Source of the DNA: a virus
DNA length: 36,052 nt
Reading direction: 5' to 3' (one strand)
IMG/VR virus record: IMGVR_UViG_3300037042_003768
Location: 1-36,052 of that record
The notes beneath the pieces were generated by a model. It searched no databases. It saw nothing but the letters and a program-made list of their open reading frames with translations, and was not told the DNA's origin. The position numbers were made by a program, and so were the translations under genes. Of the stretch, positions 18,874 to 25,608 are shown piece after piece (the stretch's first letter is position 1; each line of letters begins with the position of its first letter).

Positions 18874-19143
18874 TCATGCCCGCTTCTTCTCCGGGTTCGT
18901 CCTCAATAGAGACAGTGCGCCCAGCGGGGGCGCCACGGACATGGGATCAAGGTCCCGAGTAACACGAGCAGACTTGATCTCTGCATATAGTCCCTCGTTG
19001 ACCTGTTGGGCCATCTTGATAATCTTCGACGCCTGGTCTATGTCCATCTCCCCAAGGCGTACCCATTCCATGGCCTTGAGGAGATATTCCCGGAGTTCCC
19101 CAGTCGTTGTTATCACCGCGCGAACTACATTCTTATCAGTCAT
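18874..19143 (-). CDS. Small helical protein before the helicase (89 aa)
   Basis: ATG 19143 overlaps the upstream stop (ATGA). Predicted helices include TGELREYLLKAMEWVRLGEM and DIDQASKIIKMAQQVNEGLY, a pattern common in small phage proteins coded next to replication genes. The C-terminal 25 residues are probably disordered. Function unknown. Confidence 0.7.
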   Translation of the reverse strand: MTDKNVVRAVITTTGELREYLLKAMEWVRLGEMDIDQASKIIKMAQQVNEGLYAEIKSARVTRDLDPMSVAPPLGALSLLRTNPEKKRA

Positions 19144-19640
19144 GCCGTCCTCCTTTGCAGTTTCTCTTTACATGCCTCGATGGCGTGCCTAGTTTGGATT
19201 ACCTCCCTGTAGGCAATCCGCAACGGGTCTCTTCGATCGCGTTGATCTATTTCCCTGATCCGTGCGCGCGGCAGATCCGCATTCCGCCGATTTCGATAGT
19301 ATTCGTTCAATTGGTCCTTGTGTGAGTGTCGCCAGTTTCTGTTCAACTCACACGACCGTTCATGGTGCAGGTAGTGTTGCTTCATCCGGTATTTTGAGCG
19401 AGCATTCCTGTTTTTCTTCTCCCATTCCCTCAGCTTCGCACGAACAGTCTCCGGATGTTTCGCGCGATACATTGCGCTCCTCTCTCTCGCCCGTTTTCTT
19501 TTCTCGTCTTCTGTCAAGACCGTACGCGGGTGAGGTACGTACGTGCGAAGACGGAAATCCTTCATTTGCGCCAGGTGCTTCTCTCGATTGCGTTCGTGGT
19601 ATTCCTTCCAGTATTTGCGTTTGGCTGATTCGTCTCTCAT
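19140..19640 (-). CDS. Very basic repeat protein in a lower-GC island (166 aa)
   Basis: Built from several ~20-25 residue repeats of the form Y-x(2)-N/H-x(2)-K-x-L/R...KxxR (KEYHERNREKHLAQMKDFRL; MYRAKHPETVRAKLREWEKK; YYRNRRN). This Tyr/Lys/Arg-rich pattern is often found N-terminal to HNH endonucleases, but no HNH motif is present. It could be a truncated homing nuclease or a nucleic-acid-binding protein. Visibly less GC-rich than its neighbours, suggesting recent transfer. Confidence 0.65.
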   Translation of the reverse strand: MRDESAKRKYWKEYHERNREKHLAQMKDFRLRTYVPHPRTVLTEDEKRKRARERSAMYRAKHPETVRAKLREWEKKNRNARSKYRMKQHYLHHERSCELNRNWRHSHKDQLNEYYRNRRNADLPRARIREIDQRDRRDPLRIAYREVIQTRHAIEACKEKLQRRTA

Positions 19641-19671
19641 CCCCCGACCTCCTCAACCTCGACCTCCGCGC

Positions 19672-20121
19672 CTAGATCGCCTGGTTGTCCGGTAACTGCG
19701 ATAACTCCCCCGTGAACACATCCCCCACGCACCGCGCCAGAATCGCCACGCCCCCATTGCCCGCGACGGTCCGCAGGAACGCTGCCTGTTGTTCCGTCGC
19801 GTTGCCACCCCCGGGAGCCTTGCACTCGACCGCGAGAAACCGCCCGTCCTTCGTCTGCCCGATGATGTCGCTGAGCCCCGGGAACCCGTACCGGATGAAC
19901 CGCTCGCCATCCTTGTACGAGCCCGTGTTCATGCGTGCGGCCCACGCCACGCGCGGGTGTAGACGCAGCGCTGCGAGCACCACGTGGATGACGGTGCCCT
20001 CCGGCGTCGGCCCGGACCGTTTCGCCCGCGGTGTCGTCACGGGGTGCAGGCGGTCAAGCTGCTCGCGCGAGGCACCGTAGAGCTGATGCGCGGCTCGGAG
20101 TTCGCGGGCGGTGGGCCTCAT
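19672..20121 (-). CDS. VRR-NUC domain nuclease (149 aa)
   Basis: The VRR-NUC signature is plain: WAARMNTGSYKDGERFIRYG, FPGLSDIIGQTKDGRFLAVE with catalytic Asp85 and Glu99-Cys-Lys101, and TEQQAAFL with Gln111. A stand-alone phage form of this Holliday-junction-resolvase-like PD-(D/E)XK fold, thought to cut branched DNA. ATG 20121 overlaps the stop of the methyltransferase remnant (ATGA), showing that the remnant was once the adjacent gene's true 3' end. Confidence 0.85.
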   Translation of the reverse strand: MRPTARELRAAHQLYGASREQLDRLHPVTTPRAKRSGPTPEGTVIHVVLAALRLHPRVAWAARMNTGSYKDGERFIRYGFPGLSDIIGQTKDGRFLAVECKAPGGGNATEQQAAFLRTVAGNGGVAILARCVGDVFTGELSQLPDNQAI

Positions 20122-20162
20122 AACGGCAGCACCTCCTGCAGCATCCGCTTCGCCGCGATCTC
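20118..20162 (-). pseudogene. Remnant 3' end of a DNA methyltransferase
   Basis: Downstream of the HNH gene the minus strand encodes EIAAKRMLQEVLPL and then TGA, overlapping the VRR-NUC start. The methyltransferase upstream of the HNH gene has the equivalent AIAAKRMQQECLPL at its end. The two copies match in protein but differ at many silent positions. The downstream copy is GC-rich like the rest of the phage, so it is probably the native 3' end left by an HNH-linked replacement. Confidence 0.7.
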
Positions 20163-20164
20163 GT

Positions 20165-20632
20165 CTATAAGTGTCTCCATGCCTTCCGACGCACTACGAG
20201 ACTTACCAGCGAAGCGCTGACTCCGAGTTCTGCCGCGATGTCTTTTTGTTTCGCTCCCGAAGCGACTTCTTTCCGAATTCGCAATACATCCTCGTTTGTC
20301 AGCTTCGATTCCCCATGCTCCGAGCCCCTCAGTGTCGGTACTCGCTCCCTCCCCTTCGCGGCCATGTCCTGAGAGTTTTCCCGTTTGGTCCCGAGGAACA
20401 GATGATCTGGATTCACACATTTCCGGTTGTCGCATCGGTGCAGCACGCAAAGCCCTCGCGGAATTGTGCCGTTGTGAATTTCCCAGGAATAGCGATGGGT
20501 TAGGCGCAGGCGTCCACCCGCGTAGATGTTGCCGTACCCCGTACTCGACAGGCATCCGGTCCATTCCCAGCACCCCCTACTCTTCGCAACTGCCGCCCAA
20601 AAGCGGTCCTCTGGAGCCTTCCATCGTGGCAT
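20165..20632 (-). CDS. HNH homing endonuclease (155 aa)
   Basis: ATG 20632 (MPRWKAPEDRFW) follows GGGAGGGATCAA, so the upstream extension to 20665 is not used. Residues ~20-100 are an HNH_3-type domain: GCWEWTG, YSWEIHNGTIPRGLCVLHRC, and CDNRKCVNPDHLFLGTKREN. The C-terminus (~115-150), KLTNEDVLRIRKE and KQKDIAAELGVSASLVS, is a NUMOD/HTH DNA-binding module. It lies between the two copies of the methyltransferase end and is lower in GC than the flanks, as expected of a mobile homing gene. Confidence 0.85.
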   Translation of the reverse strand: MPRWKAPEDRFWAAVAKSRGCWEWTGCLSSTGYGNIYAGGRLRLTHRYSWEIHNGTIPRGLCVLHRCDNRKCVNPDHLFLGTKRENSQDMAAKGRERVPTLRGSEHGESKLTNEDVLRIRKEVASGAKQKDIAAELGVSASLVSLVVRRKAWRHL

Positions 20633-21353
20633 TTGATCCCTCCCATAATTCAGGTACAGGATCAACTCTACTGATTTCGCTATTACTCGTCAACGGCAAA
20701 CACTCTTGCTGCATTCTTTTCGCAGCTATGGCGCAGTACCGCTCTTCGATTTCGATACCGATAGCCTTGCGGCCTAGATCCTTGGCAGCGCGGAGGGTTG
20801 TGCCGCTGCCCATGAATGGGTCGAGGATGGTATCGCCTGCAACGCTACCCAAGCGTACGAGCTTCGACACGATCCGAAACGGTTTCTTGTTGGGATGCTC
20901 TGTCGTCTTGTCTCCGCAAGGGTGAAGCATGAATGACGATTTAAGGGCCATGGTTCCAAACAGTCTCCCGGTGGAAAACGAGTGGACTACGTACTCAACG
21001 TCGGGGAGGTATTTGTTGCTGCACGTCGGAACCGGGTTCGGCTTGCACCAAGTAAGCAGATTCCACCGATCGTTCTTTGTCGCTATCGAAAGCACCTGTT
21101 GAAGCTGCAAGCGCGAACAAAAGCAAAACCAGTCTGAGAAGCCGAGCAGGAACGCGAAGTCACACCCTACATCAGTAAAGCCCCCGGTTTTGACAAGATG
21201 ATCCCGCCTACCAAAGCATCCACCGCCCGCCCCCGCGTAAATCTCATACGGCGGATCCGTCAACACCAGATCCACCTTCGGCAGCCCCGGCAGAATCTCC
21301 CGACAGTCCCCGTGATAGATCGTAACCGCGCCGTCTTGGTAGTAGGGTTTCAT
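20577..21353 (-). CDS. DNA methyltransferase (N6-adenine/N4-cytosine type), C-terminus altered by HNH insertion (258 aa)
   Basis: Motif IV TDPPY at 32-36 precedes motif I DPFMGSGTTL at 178-187, the beta-class order; EHPNKKPFRIVSKLV precedes motif I. The natural end ...AIAAKRMQQECLPL is at ~221. The frame then runs on for 37 codons of non-homologous sequence into the HNH gene, overlapping its start by 56 nt. Codons 1-45 are GC-rich, the rest is near 50% GC (30/60 in 21061-21120 and 20881-20940 against 36/60 in 21241-21300), pointing to a mosaic gene. It may protect phage DNA from host restriction. Confidence 0.85.
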   Translation of the reverse strand: MKPYYQDGAVTIYHGDCREILPGLPKVDLVLTDPPYEIYAGAGGGCFGRRDHLVKTGGFTDVGCDFAFLLGFSDWFCFCSRLQLQQVLSIATKNDRWNLLTWCKPNPVPTCSNKYLPDVEYVVHSFSTGRLFGTMALKSSFMLHPCGDKTTEHPNKKPFRIVSKLVRLGSVAGDTILDPFMGSGTTLRAAKDLGRKAIGIEIEERYCAIAAKRMQQECLPLTSNSEISRVDPVPELWEGSNATMEGSRGPLLGGSCEE

Positions 21354-21381
21354 GCCGCCCCGCCGGGGTTTTCGCCAGGAG

Positions 21382-21567
21382 TCATCGCCCCACCACCCGC
21401 AGCCTCGGCTTCGTCTCGACGACCACCGGCGCCGTCAGTTCGTTGACCCTAGCCAGCCACCGGCGCCGTTCCTCACCCCACGCGATTGCTTGCGCGAGGT
21501 GGTGCCGCTCGTACTCGGAGGCGCGGCGGAGCTCGTGGCAGGCCCATGCGAGGCGGAGGCGGGTCAC
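21382..21567 (-). CDS. Small basic helical protein (61 aa)
   Basis: GTG 21567 overlaps the previous stop (GTGA) with GGGAG 8 nt upstream. The sequence MTRLRLAWACHELRRASEYE is helical and Arg/Ala-rich, ending in TKPRLRVVGR. Unknown function; the coupling supports translation. Confidence 0.55.
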   Translation of the reverse strand: MTRLRLAWACHELRRASEYERHHLAQAIAWGEERRRWLARVNELTAPVVVETKPRLRVVGR

Positions 21568-22172
21568 GAGCGCATCTCCCGGTCCAGCTTCGTACAGACG
21601 GCCAAGAAATCCGCCCTGCCGCTGTCACAGGTGCTGTCCCAGTCGCTGGCCCTGGCCCAGGCGCTGTCCCAGGCGCTGTCGCAGGCGCTAGCCCAGGCGC
21701 TGTCGCAGGCGCTGGCCCAGGCGCTGGCCCAGGGGCTGTCCCTGGCGCTGGCCCTGGCGCTGGCCAGCTCTTCTTCCGTAGCCTCCCCGCGCGCGAATCG
21801 CTCCGCCACGACAATGACGGCCTCCGACCCCGGGGCCAAGTGCATCACCTTCCGGACCTGTTGACAGGCGTACAGCCGCAGCTCGCGCGAGATATCACGC
21901 CGCCAGAGTATCTCCCGGTGCCGCGAAGCGAGTTTGTCTACTGGATTGCCGTGATACACCACCTCGCCCCACTGGCGCACCCGGCACAGCACCGGCCCGG
22001 ACGCGTACTGGAGCGCGTCCATCGGATGCTCCGACCCGTGCAGCCCAGACTGGCACGGGATAATCTCCGGCTCGTCCGTGGTGTAGATGTAGCCCGGCTC
22101 CGAGTCCGCGCAGAATTGCGTGGTCCCGTCTTTGCGGCAGAACCACCAGGACAGGATCTTTTTCTCTCTCAT
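21564..22172 (-). CDS. DUF7666-like protein with C-terminal Ala-Ser-Ala-Trp repeats (202 aa)
   Basis: ATG 22172 (MREKKILSWWFCRKDG) is preceded by GGGAGGCGATCAG; the frame upstream of it overlaps other genes and is not used. The N-terminal ~120 residues (SGLHGSEHPMDALQYASGPV, LCRVRQWGEVVYHGNPVDKL, REILWRRDISRELRLYACQQ) resemble a phage/bacterial family (DUF7666-type, from memory) whose members often end in Ala/Trp/Arg tandem repeats. Here residues ~142-190 are (A/D)-S-A-(W/C/R) tetrapeptides from a 12-bp DNA repeat. Biochemical role unknown. Confidence 0.7.
   Translation of the reverse strand: MREKKILSWWFCRKDGTTQFCADSEPGYIYTTDEPEIIPCQSGLHGSEHPMDALQYASGPVLCRVRQWGEVVYHGNPVDKLASRHREILWRRDISRELRLYACQQVRKVMHLAPGSEAVIVVAERFARGEATEEELASARASARDSPWASAWASACDSAWASACDSAWDSAWARASDWDSTCDSGRADFLAVCTKLDREMRS
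21621..21768. repeat. 12-bp tandem repeat (about 12 copies) inside the DUF7666-like gene
   Basis: The plus strand repeats GCGCTGTCCCAG/GCGCTGGCCCAG with variation (GCAGGCGCT, CTGGCGCTG). On the coding strand each unit gives four codons, (G[A/C]C)(AGC)(GCC)(TGG/TGC/AGG). Unit length is a multiple of three, so copy number can change without breaking the frame. Confidence 0.85.
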
Positions 22173-24405: not shown

Positions 24406-24530
24406 TTCACCCCCATTCCCACCGGCTTCGTCAACCTCTTATGGCACGCCCCGCAGACGTGGATCACCCGCCCGTTGTGGGTTATGTGATACGGCGCTGG
24501 GTTGCCGCAGGAGCAACGGTCTGTGGTCAC
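24402..24530 (-). CDS. Zinc-ribbon microprotein (42 aa)
   Basis: GTG 24530 follows ACGGAGGAAAC. The peptide MTTDRCSCGNPAPYHITHNG continues through VIHVCGACHKRLTKPVGMGVK: CxC and CxxC separated by 19 residues, a compact zinc ribbon. It ends in an ATGA overlap with the 74-aa gene. Confidence 0.65.
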   Translation of the reverse strand: MTTDRCSCGNPAPYHITHNGRVIHVCGACHKRLTKPVGMGVK

Positions 24531-24570
24531 GTTTCCTCCGTTTGTGTAAGTATTAGGGCAAGGAATGCAC

Positions 24571-24711
24571 TTACCCCGACCGCGACCGCGACCACGACCG
24601 CGACCACGACCCCGACCACGACCCCGACCGCGACCGCGACCACGACCCCGACCACGACCCCGACCACGACCGCGACCACGACCGCGACTCCACGAACAGC
24701 GTCGATATCAT
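24571..24711 (-). CDS. Ser-Arg/Trp/Gly repeat protein (46 aa)
   Basis: ATG 24711 overlaps the stop of the 113-aa gene (ATGA). After MISTLFVE comes 19 dipeptides Ser-X with X = Arg, Trp or Gly, coded by hexamers TCGNGG, then TAA. The overlapping start favours this frame. A competing frame through the same repeat gives a Val/Ala/Gly hydrophobic peptide ending in LALILTQTEET at 24527, in GTGA overlap with the next gene, and cannot be excluded. Confidence 0.45.
   Translation of the reverse strand: MISTLFVESRSWSRSWSGSWSGSWSRSRSGSWSGSWSRSWSRSRSG
24574..24687. repeat. Hexanucleotide tandem repeat TCGNGG x19
   Basis: The minus strand is 19 uninterrupted copies of TCGNGG (N = C, T or G), seen on the plus strand as CCNCGA repeats. 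All three frames stay open because the unit is 6 bp without stops, so the choice of frame rests on the flanking starts and stops. Confidence 0.9.
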
Positions 24712-25049
24712 TTCTGGACCATCGGGAGCGCGTGCGCCCACGGGAACACATCTACTACCGTGTCAGTGTTGAGCCACATACACCCCACGGGCTCAACTTC
24801 GCTGAGAGCGCCGTCGCGGATCGCCTGCGTGAACCGGCCCGAATCCGCGATCCATGACGCGTCTACTATCAGGACCCACCTACCGCGCACCTCGGACACC
24901 CGCCCTACGCAGTGGTAGGTCACGGTGCGGATGAATACAGACGATCCGACCACGAACACGGCAGACTCGTCGCCGTCACCGCTAGCGGTCTCGTGTTTTT
25001 CATTGCCGATCAATTCCTCGATCAGTGCCAGCACCATTTCCTTTTTCAT
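24708..25049 (-). CDS. Conserved phage protein next to the SGYGDG repeat gene (113 aa)
   Basis: ATG 25049 has GGAGGAG upstream (ATG 25052 is too close to it). After an N-terminal helix (MKKEMVLALIEELIGNEKHE) comes a beta-rich core VFIRTVTYHCVGRV, GRWVLIVDASWIADSGRFTQ and VEPVGCMWLNTDTVVDVFPW. I recall this pattern from other phages, found near the QRGWV protein and Gly/Tyr repeat proteins. Function unknown. The frame is open far upstream through the repeat, but that part is not coding. Confidence 0.7.
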   Translation of the reverse strand: MKKEMVLALIEELIGNEKHETASGDGDESAVFVVGSSVFIRTVTYHCVGRVSEVRGRWVLIVDASWIADSGRFTQAIRDGALSEVEPVGCMWLNTDTVVDVFPWAHALPMVQK

Positions 25050-25144: not shown

Positions 25145-25345
25145 TCAAATCCCGTCCCCGTACCCCGACCCGTCCCCGTGCCCGTCCCCGTACCCCGACA
25201 CGACCCCGTCCCCGTACCCCGACCCGACCCCGTCCCCGTACCCCGACCCGTCCCCGCCCCCCGACCCGTCCCCCGACCAGTACCCGTACCCGCACCCGTA
25301 CCCCGACCCAACCGATAGCTGTGCATCCTCGCCGAGAGATGCCAT
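25145..25345 (-). CDS. Ser-Gly-Tyr-Gly-Asp-Gly repeat protein (66 aa)
   Basis: ATG 25345 shares a base with the upstream stop (TGATG), which fixes the frame among three open ones. After [12 protein letters not shown] the protein is 53 residues of Gly at every second position with Ser, Tyr, Asp, Cys or Val between, including four SGYGDG units (18-bp DNA unit). Such Gly/Tyr/Asp repeats occur in small phage proteins of unknown role. They may be disordered, adhesive or metal binding; no assignment is made. Confidence 0.6.
25151..25309. repeat. 6/18-bp tandem repeat coding SGYGDG
   Basis: Coding-strand units GGGNNN combine into 18-bp TCGGGGTACGGGGACGGG (SGYGDG), present four times with degenerate units between. 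As at 24574 and 21621, unit length keeps the frame. Confidence 0.85.
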
Positions 25346-25608
25346 CACGCGGGGCATACCGCATTCCATCCGGCGTCAGACGCCTCGATAGACATGATCT
25401 CTCCGAGGATGTGAAAGCGAACGGTTCCGCACGGATCACAGATGGTATCCTTCAGCGGCCCGGTAATGATCTCTCCGAGGCCCTTCTGCGTACCCCACCG
25501 GCGGATCACGGACGCCTTGCGCAGCTCGCAGTTGTCACCGCTTCTCCAGTATTCACCGACCAAAACCCATCCGCGCTGTAGCACCACAATGCGTATATCT
25601 CGGACCAT
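25345..25608 (-). CDS. Conserved phage 'QRGWV' protein (87 aa)
   Basis: ATG 25608 follows GAGGAGGACGAG. Sequence MVRDIRIVVLQRGWVLVGEY, then RKASVIRRWGTQKGLGEI and PCGTVRFHILGEIMSIEASD: a small beta protein I recall from many phages, usually near other small accessory genes. It ends in a TGATG overlap with the SGYGDG repeat gene, making a fixed pair with it and the 113-aa protein downstream. Function unknown. Confidence 0.75.
   Translation of the reverse strand: MVRDIRIVVLQRGWVLVGEYWRSGDNCELRKASVIRRWGTQKGLGEIITGPLKDTICDPCGTVRFHILGEIMSIEASDAGWNAVCPA

Follow-up and report, generated by a model that had tools for sequence, protein, structure and literature searches.

Two methyltransferase ends, one on each side of a free-standing phage HNH endonuclease gene, and similar layouts beside related HNH genes

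In a virus record of 36,052 bases, which was analysed at its full length and is called the window here, a DNA methyltransferase (MTase) gene is followed by a free-standing HNH endonuclease gene and then by a second, differently coded MTase end. Sequence comparison makes it probable that this block was left by an HNH homing endonuclease gene that moves as one piece with a diverged version of its target gene's end. The low-GC working end and the adjoining HNH gene fit a single unit inserted within coding sequence.

Two methyltransferase ends

The features of the block are listed below, with the MTase end that is still part of a complete gene called the working tail and the one behind the HNH gene the orphan end.

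20577..21353, minus strand: N6_N4_Mtase ORF, the working MTase (258 aa; PF01555, E 1.2e-25)
20691..20732, minus strand: working (divergent) MTase tail AIAAKRMQQECLPL, without a stop codon (tail profile 33.5 bits)
20165..20632, minus strand: free-standing HNH endonuclease gene, first in-frame ATG at 20632 (PF13392, E 3.8e-15; PF05551; weak HTH_38)
20118..20162, minus strand: orphan native MTase 3' end EIAAKRMLQEVLPL-stop, matching the tails of MTase relatives (tail profile 47.1 bits)
19672..20121, minus strand: VRR-NUC-like gene (PF08774, E 0.001, 19.6 bits, below the cut-off of 23.8)

Transcription thus runs from the MTase ORF through the HNH ORF and the orphan MTase tail with its stop to the VRR-NUC-like ORF, which is 50% identical to an ORF of a related phage (L162). 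The first-pass annotation of this DNA had the MTase gene end in its tail and then run into the HNH gene. The tail is present, but there is no stop codon at that point and the ORF continues for 37 codons beyond AIAAKRMQQECLPL into the HNH region, in a different frame from the HNH gene, whose start lies within the MTase ORF. The other part of that description, a second and differently coded tail with a stop behind the HNH gene, overlapping the start of the next gene, was borne out. The 14 codons of the orphan tail occupy 20162-20121 and the stop extends to 20118; the first base lies 2 bases past the HNH stop codon, and the orphan TGA and the ATG of the VRR-NUC-like gene (20121) overlap by 4 bases.

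A position matrix for the tail was derived from 63 distinct tails, taken from the MTase relatives that matched the tail motif (76 of 80), and all stop-free 14-residue peptides in the six frames of the window (n = 55,183) were scanned with it. The orphan end took rank 1 (47.1 bits) and the working tail rank 2 (33.5 bits), and the peptide at rank 3 scored 1.2 bits. The presence of two real MTase ends was confirmed and chance is excluded; the orphan, with 47.1 against 33.5 bits, is the better family tail of the two. The two tails are identical at 11 of 14 residues, 7 of these 11 being encoded by different codons.

The HNH protein contains an HNH_3 core (PF13392, E 3.8e-15, profile positions 2-45 of 46) with an intact catalytic motif, the residues of which were read from the sequence. 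A helix-turn-helix was found at its C-terminus by a weak match under the Pfam cut-off (HTH_38, E 0.00039), and no solved structure was matched at E 0.01.

The orphan end and the junction in relatives without the HNH gene

Comparison with HNH-less relatives, which the first-pass annotation had suggested, gave three distinct loci (L031, L061 and L254) in which the MTase end is joined straight to a VRR-NUC gene. In each of them the MTase stop overlaps the VRR_NUC start by 4 bases, as at the orphan end, and the VRR_NUC call (PF08774) is above the Pfam cut-off; another locus, L259, equals L254 over 3,788 bases and was not counted separately. All three are distant, with MTases ~37-41% identical to that of the window and VRR-NUC genes that are no close relatives of the window's. 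Since these relatives share the junction with its 4-base overlap, the orphan end is best taken as the 3' end native to this gene, now displaced by an HNH gene together with a divergent working copy. The earlier description of the orphan peptide as the original end of the MTase, cut off from the rest of the gene by an HNH gene with a differently coded tail, is supported.

A related HNH gene stood directly behind the MTase in none of the 80 MTase loci; the nearest one downstream was ~0.7 kb away (L014). The closest phage relative of the window, L162, was found by a terminase search. Its VRR-NUC gene has no MTase in front, so this locus is not an empty site. Close relatives of the window VRR-NUC gene were found neither in viral contigs nor in genome contigs, a two-sequence VRR-NUC profile returned the L162 contig again and nothing else, and a comparison with phages gave five weak matches. 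Among the relatives examined, of which L031, L061 and L254 are distant and L162 is without the MTase, no true empty site for this phage was found.

Composition and edges of the block

The best two-level GC model set off a low-GC block at 20155-21220, with 54.6% GC against 67.3% outside. A low-GC block between the tails had been noted before and is real, but its value is nearer 55% than the 50% given then. GC3 was 0.63 in the MTase gene and 0.61 in the HNH gene; the ten other large window genes that were measured gave 0.77-0.87. The lower-coordinate edge of the block coincides with the HNH/orphan junction. What had been proposed as a right crossover near the 3' end of the MTase gene is not a crossover in the ordinary sense: lying 2 bases beyond the HNH stop, it suggests the boundary of the HNH gene itself.

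At the other edge, the log-likelihood was -1736.3 for a start at 21220 and -1736.5 for a start at 21353, where the MTase gene begins, a difference of 0.2 log units. MTase codons 1-45 have 60.7% GC and codons 46-221 have 53.8%, and the GC3 change point inside the gene was not significant (permutation p = 0.74). Because of this p value, and because a block from 21353 fits as well as one from 21220, the proposed left crossover near TDPPY is without support. For most of the MTase gene, or for all of it, the composition is not that of the phage, and the whole MTase may be foreign. Nearest relatives differed between segments of the MTase, the middle segment (residues 46-168) being at most 33% identical to any of the 80 relatives, which is too low to decide. 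Taken together, the first-pass annotation was right in its observation, and its interpretation of the block as HNH-driven gene conversion by a foreign allele is supported in part.

Just past the VRR-NUC gene, two further ORFs on the minus strand, 19140-19640 and 18874-19143, have 51.5% and 54.4% GC and GC3 values of 0.59 and 0.63, respectively. The former is very rich in Lys and Arg, and both are likely to be other recent arrivals at the same spot.

Duplicated gene ends beside related HNH genes

Relatives of the window HNH gene were collected from viral contigs, bacterial genomes and phage records, giving 166 HNH places in 114 loci after removal of the duplicate or overlapping loci L081, L163, L164 and L166; 159 places had enough flank. 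The translated flanks on the two sides of each HNH gene were compared with each other, and flanks swapped between loci served as the control. Besides the window, four cases were found among the 159 places. Two of them, L112 and L172, exceeded the 99.9th percentile of the cross-locus control by protein and DNA score alike, and the other two, L173 and L088, lay between the 95th and 99th percentiles by protein score and were recognised by eye. Two earlier versions of the survey had yielded L112 and the window; L172 and L173 entered with the genome-contig loci. The rate of 4 in 159 is only indicative, since the sample consists of relatives of one HNH gene and includes near-duplicates. Most HNH places surveyed are without a duplicated end, so the layout is a minority arrangement; none stood out in the 12 phage-record loci (T7, Abp1 and ten others). 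Several GC-rich loci (L168, L110, L116, L078, L157 and others) gave weak scores near or inside the control range, which look like composition noise, and were left uncounted.

In L112, a small gene before the terminase runs on through a divergent tail into the HNH gene, and an orphan end (...SHCSKITAQCDRVKHSLQL...) lies behind the HNH gene with its stop just ahead of the terminase. Searches for relatives by the HNH, terminase and upstream genes returned this locus itself and one other HNH locus, and no HNH-less relative. In L172, a contig of Hymenobacter lapidarius, a 176-residue gene ending in FPKSALKAARRTPWKVAQPANVRQIWIDSKG... is followed by an antisense HNH gene and then by the orphan end FPKSALKAARRTSWKVAQPANVRRVWLDGTG.... 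The target gene was present in 13 of 120 genomes of the genus Hymenobacter, the other 12 having a single tail in the loci that were read, and from these HNH-less relatives we take the single tail to be the ancestral state. DNA identities to relatives hardly differ between the working tail (0.66, 0.65) and the orphan tail (0.68, 0.67). Two tRNA genes of the same contig (163-249 and 332-416), ~3.5 kb away from the HNH gene, may mark a site of prophage attachment.

The remaining cases concern the 5' end. L173, a contig of Sutterella wadsworthensis, is a mirror image of the window: an orphan 5' end MSWAYWKQVLIALDQ, with the orphan start MSWAYWKQVLIALDQVLNALLCGYADG, lies ahead of the HNH gene; the gene that begins 2 bases past the HNH stop is complete and has a divergent start. 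Among 67 genomes of the family, the HNH-less locus L243 aligned with L173 at 72.9% over 251 bases, from the end of the upstream gene through MSWAYWKQVLIAFD, and the orphan 5' end MSWAYWKQVLIALDQ is colinear with the gene start in L243. Since this alignment continues into MSWAYWKQVLIAFD, the orphan start is native. In L243 the middle of the L173-type target gene is missing, at ~1482-1630 (MSWAYWKQVLIAFDH...FFDGNHCRTSYESELERTQLPPSMRG), possibly as a scar of a cut or of the loss of the HNH gene. In L088, the HNH ORF starts with MKLPYAES and the gene behind it with MKLPYAER; 7 of the 8 residues are equal and 4 of these 7 are encoded by another codon. Relatives of this target gene were not found in phages, and L088 is a probable mirror-image (5' end) case.

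The working end had a lower GC content than the orphan end in five of five cases, as given here (working end against orphan end):

Window tail: 50% against 61%
L172: 52.0% against 62.6%
L112: 43.3% against 59.9%
L173: 42.1% against 52.4%
L088: 8 of 24 bases against 11 of 24 bases

The remainder of the working gene is at the higher level of the orphan end in L112 (58.6% GC), L172 (63.3%) and L173 (53.8%), which points to a short foreign piece, limited to the HNH-side end. In every case (the window, L112, L172, L173 and L088) the working end adjoins or overlaps the HNH gene. A divergent end in phase with the resident gene, an endonuclease ORF next to it and the native end on the opposite side are therefore present in the window and in four further places. 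What is seen in the window thus appears to have happened beside related HNH genes in unrelated target genes as well, with HNH-less relatives at hand for two of them (L172 and L173).

A proposed course of events and its alternatives

On the reading that we favour, the MTase gene of the ancestral phage would have had EIAAKRMLQEVLPL as its end, with a 4-base overlap into the VRR-NUC gene. A cassette of foreign DNA, comprising the HNH gene and, attached to it, either the 3' portion of an MTase or a complete one, would have entered at the 3' end of the native MTase gene. The incoming copy would have taken over the reading frame, which would leave the phage with one full-length MTase and strand the last 14 native codons behind the HNH gene. 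We infer that the HNH enzyme was the driver of this event. Its cut would fall in the native end, at the EERYCEIAAKRM codons or close to them, whereas the divergent working end would presumably resist cutting, and repair would copy the cassette from a coinfecting, HNH-bearing phage. Homology flanking the cassette, within the gene at one border and within the orphan end at the other, could guide such repair, and the recipient would retain a functional gene. The orphan end may now be the right-hand arm of homology for another round.

The same order of the two ends would also be left by a tandem duplication, if the HNH gene had entered between two MTase genes and the second had eroded to its last 14 codons, and tandem MTases do occur in phages such as TripleJ, where two MTase genes lie under one match. 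Taken alone, the window is compatible with a tandem pair eroded to a stub; the sister cases do not fit it. Only end pieces were found in all five cases, in unrelated genes, and the HNH-less relatives of L172 and L173 have one copy. The window orphan, moreover, begins 2 bases after the HNH stop, and it is the working end, not the orphan, that has the odd composition, so that a duplication of this kind is quite improbable. Under ordinary intronless homing or mosaic recombination, a foreign MTase-HNH block would have replaced the resident by a homologous crossover on the left and an illegitimate one on the right, and the duplicated end would be an accidental scar without a role. Phage mosaicism is common, free-standing phage homing endonucleases are known to co-convert flanking genes (as covered in the available part of PMC2988022), and the left edge of the foreign block fits 21220 or 21353 about equally. 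Against an accidental scar stands the recurrence of the same compact layout, in which the working end is next to the HNH gene with the native end opposite, in five unrelated places and at both 3' and 5' ends, and we hold this reading to be unlikely.

Group I introns often house HNH genes and the orphan end sits in a readable frame, as would suit a self-splicing intron or intein-like element with the orphan end as its downstream exon. However, a full tail is present in the MTase ahead of the HNH gene, and the orphan is a repeat of it. Rfam searches returned no group I or group II intron in 19600-21500 of the window on the relevant strand (E up to 1), by which the HNH gene is judged not to lie inside a self-splicing intron. 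The four sister loci likewise gave no intron match when gathering thresholds were applied. Such an element is therefore very improbable indeed.

Relation to known systems

The closest architecture is that of the fungal mitochondrial mobile ORFs with a foreign carboxy-terminus, described for Allomyces atp6 and for Glomus atp6, atp9, cox2 and nad3, in which a divergent end stands in phase, an endonuclease ORF comes next and the native end is stranded downstream (available part of PMC3630166). Those elements are mitochondrial, encode LAGLIDADG or GIY-YIG enzymes and, in that part of the paper, are described for 3' ends only. The cases described here, in contrast, have HNH enzymes of phages and prophages and concern 5' ends too. 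The Seg and Mob genes of T4 are likewise stand-alone endonuclease genes beside their targets, several of them overlapping an upstream ORF, and spread by break repair with co-conversion of the flanks. There, however, the cut site is described as lying hundreds of bases from where the gene is inserted, and the available text of the source (PMC2988022) describes no stranded native end and has no wording of the kind "remnant", "duplicat" or "truncat". Lactococcal Skunavirus HNH genes resemble the window in being free-standing and I-HmuI-like, with linked sequence change in neighbouring genes, but the accessible portion of that report describes no duplicated target end and does not use the wording "duplicat" (PMC12724721). 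Like the T4 review and the Skunavirus study, a survey of nuclease genes at phage exchange boundaries deals with intronless homing and co-conversion and, in the part available, describes no stranded end (PMC10448857). The engineered home-and-rescue drive HomeR also places an endonuclease cassette at the 3' end of the target gene, where a re-coded end restores the gene; as a synthetic Cas9 system in flies it offers an analogy only (PMC7968924, from the available text).

A phage report of an HNH cassette with a target-gene end was not found among open-access papers. What appears to be new here is a free-standing HNH homing-type gene with an attached target-gene end in phages, at both 3' and 5' ends, the fungal mitochondrial architecture being already known. 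The four other cases suggest that some phage homing enzymes may spread carrying the repair piece for the gene that they break. More tentatively, and with somewhat less than even confidence, phages and prophages might hold a class of HNH cassettes that are natural home-and-rescue drives: equipped with a divergent, cut-resistant 3' or 5' end of the target gene, they would invade coding sequence free of intron or intein and preserve the function of the gene, and the native end stranded in this way would supply a homology arm for further spread. Beside introns and inteins, a spare end would then give homing endonucleases a third way of occupying a gene without destroying it. Such a class would connect the free-standing homing endonucleases of phages to the gene-end-carrying mobile ORFs of mitochondria, would explain some odd gene-end remnants and chimaeric genes beside HNH genes, and would allow the cut site of each enzyme to be predicted from the border between working and orphan ends.

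Further observations

The sole Rfam match in 19600-21500 of the window was to a human microRNA family (mir-4526; 19990-20079, plus strand) inside the VRR-NUC gene, at 32.7 bits against a gathering score of 100, and is surely due to chance. Elsewhere in the window, a degenerate short repeat (ASACDSAWASA-like peptides) was seen at 21564-21800 (minus strand) in a DUF7666 ORF, and low-complexity repeats of a dipeptide-like kind (PRPRPR / VVVGVVVA), with several frames of both strands open, at 24527-24800 and 25200-25440. In Acinetobacter phage Abp1 (L222, 11152-13886), the DNA polymerase gene is annotated as two ORFs, split by an HNH gene that overlaps both halves.
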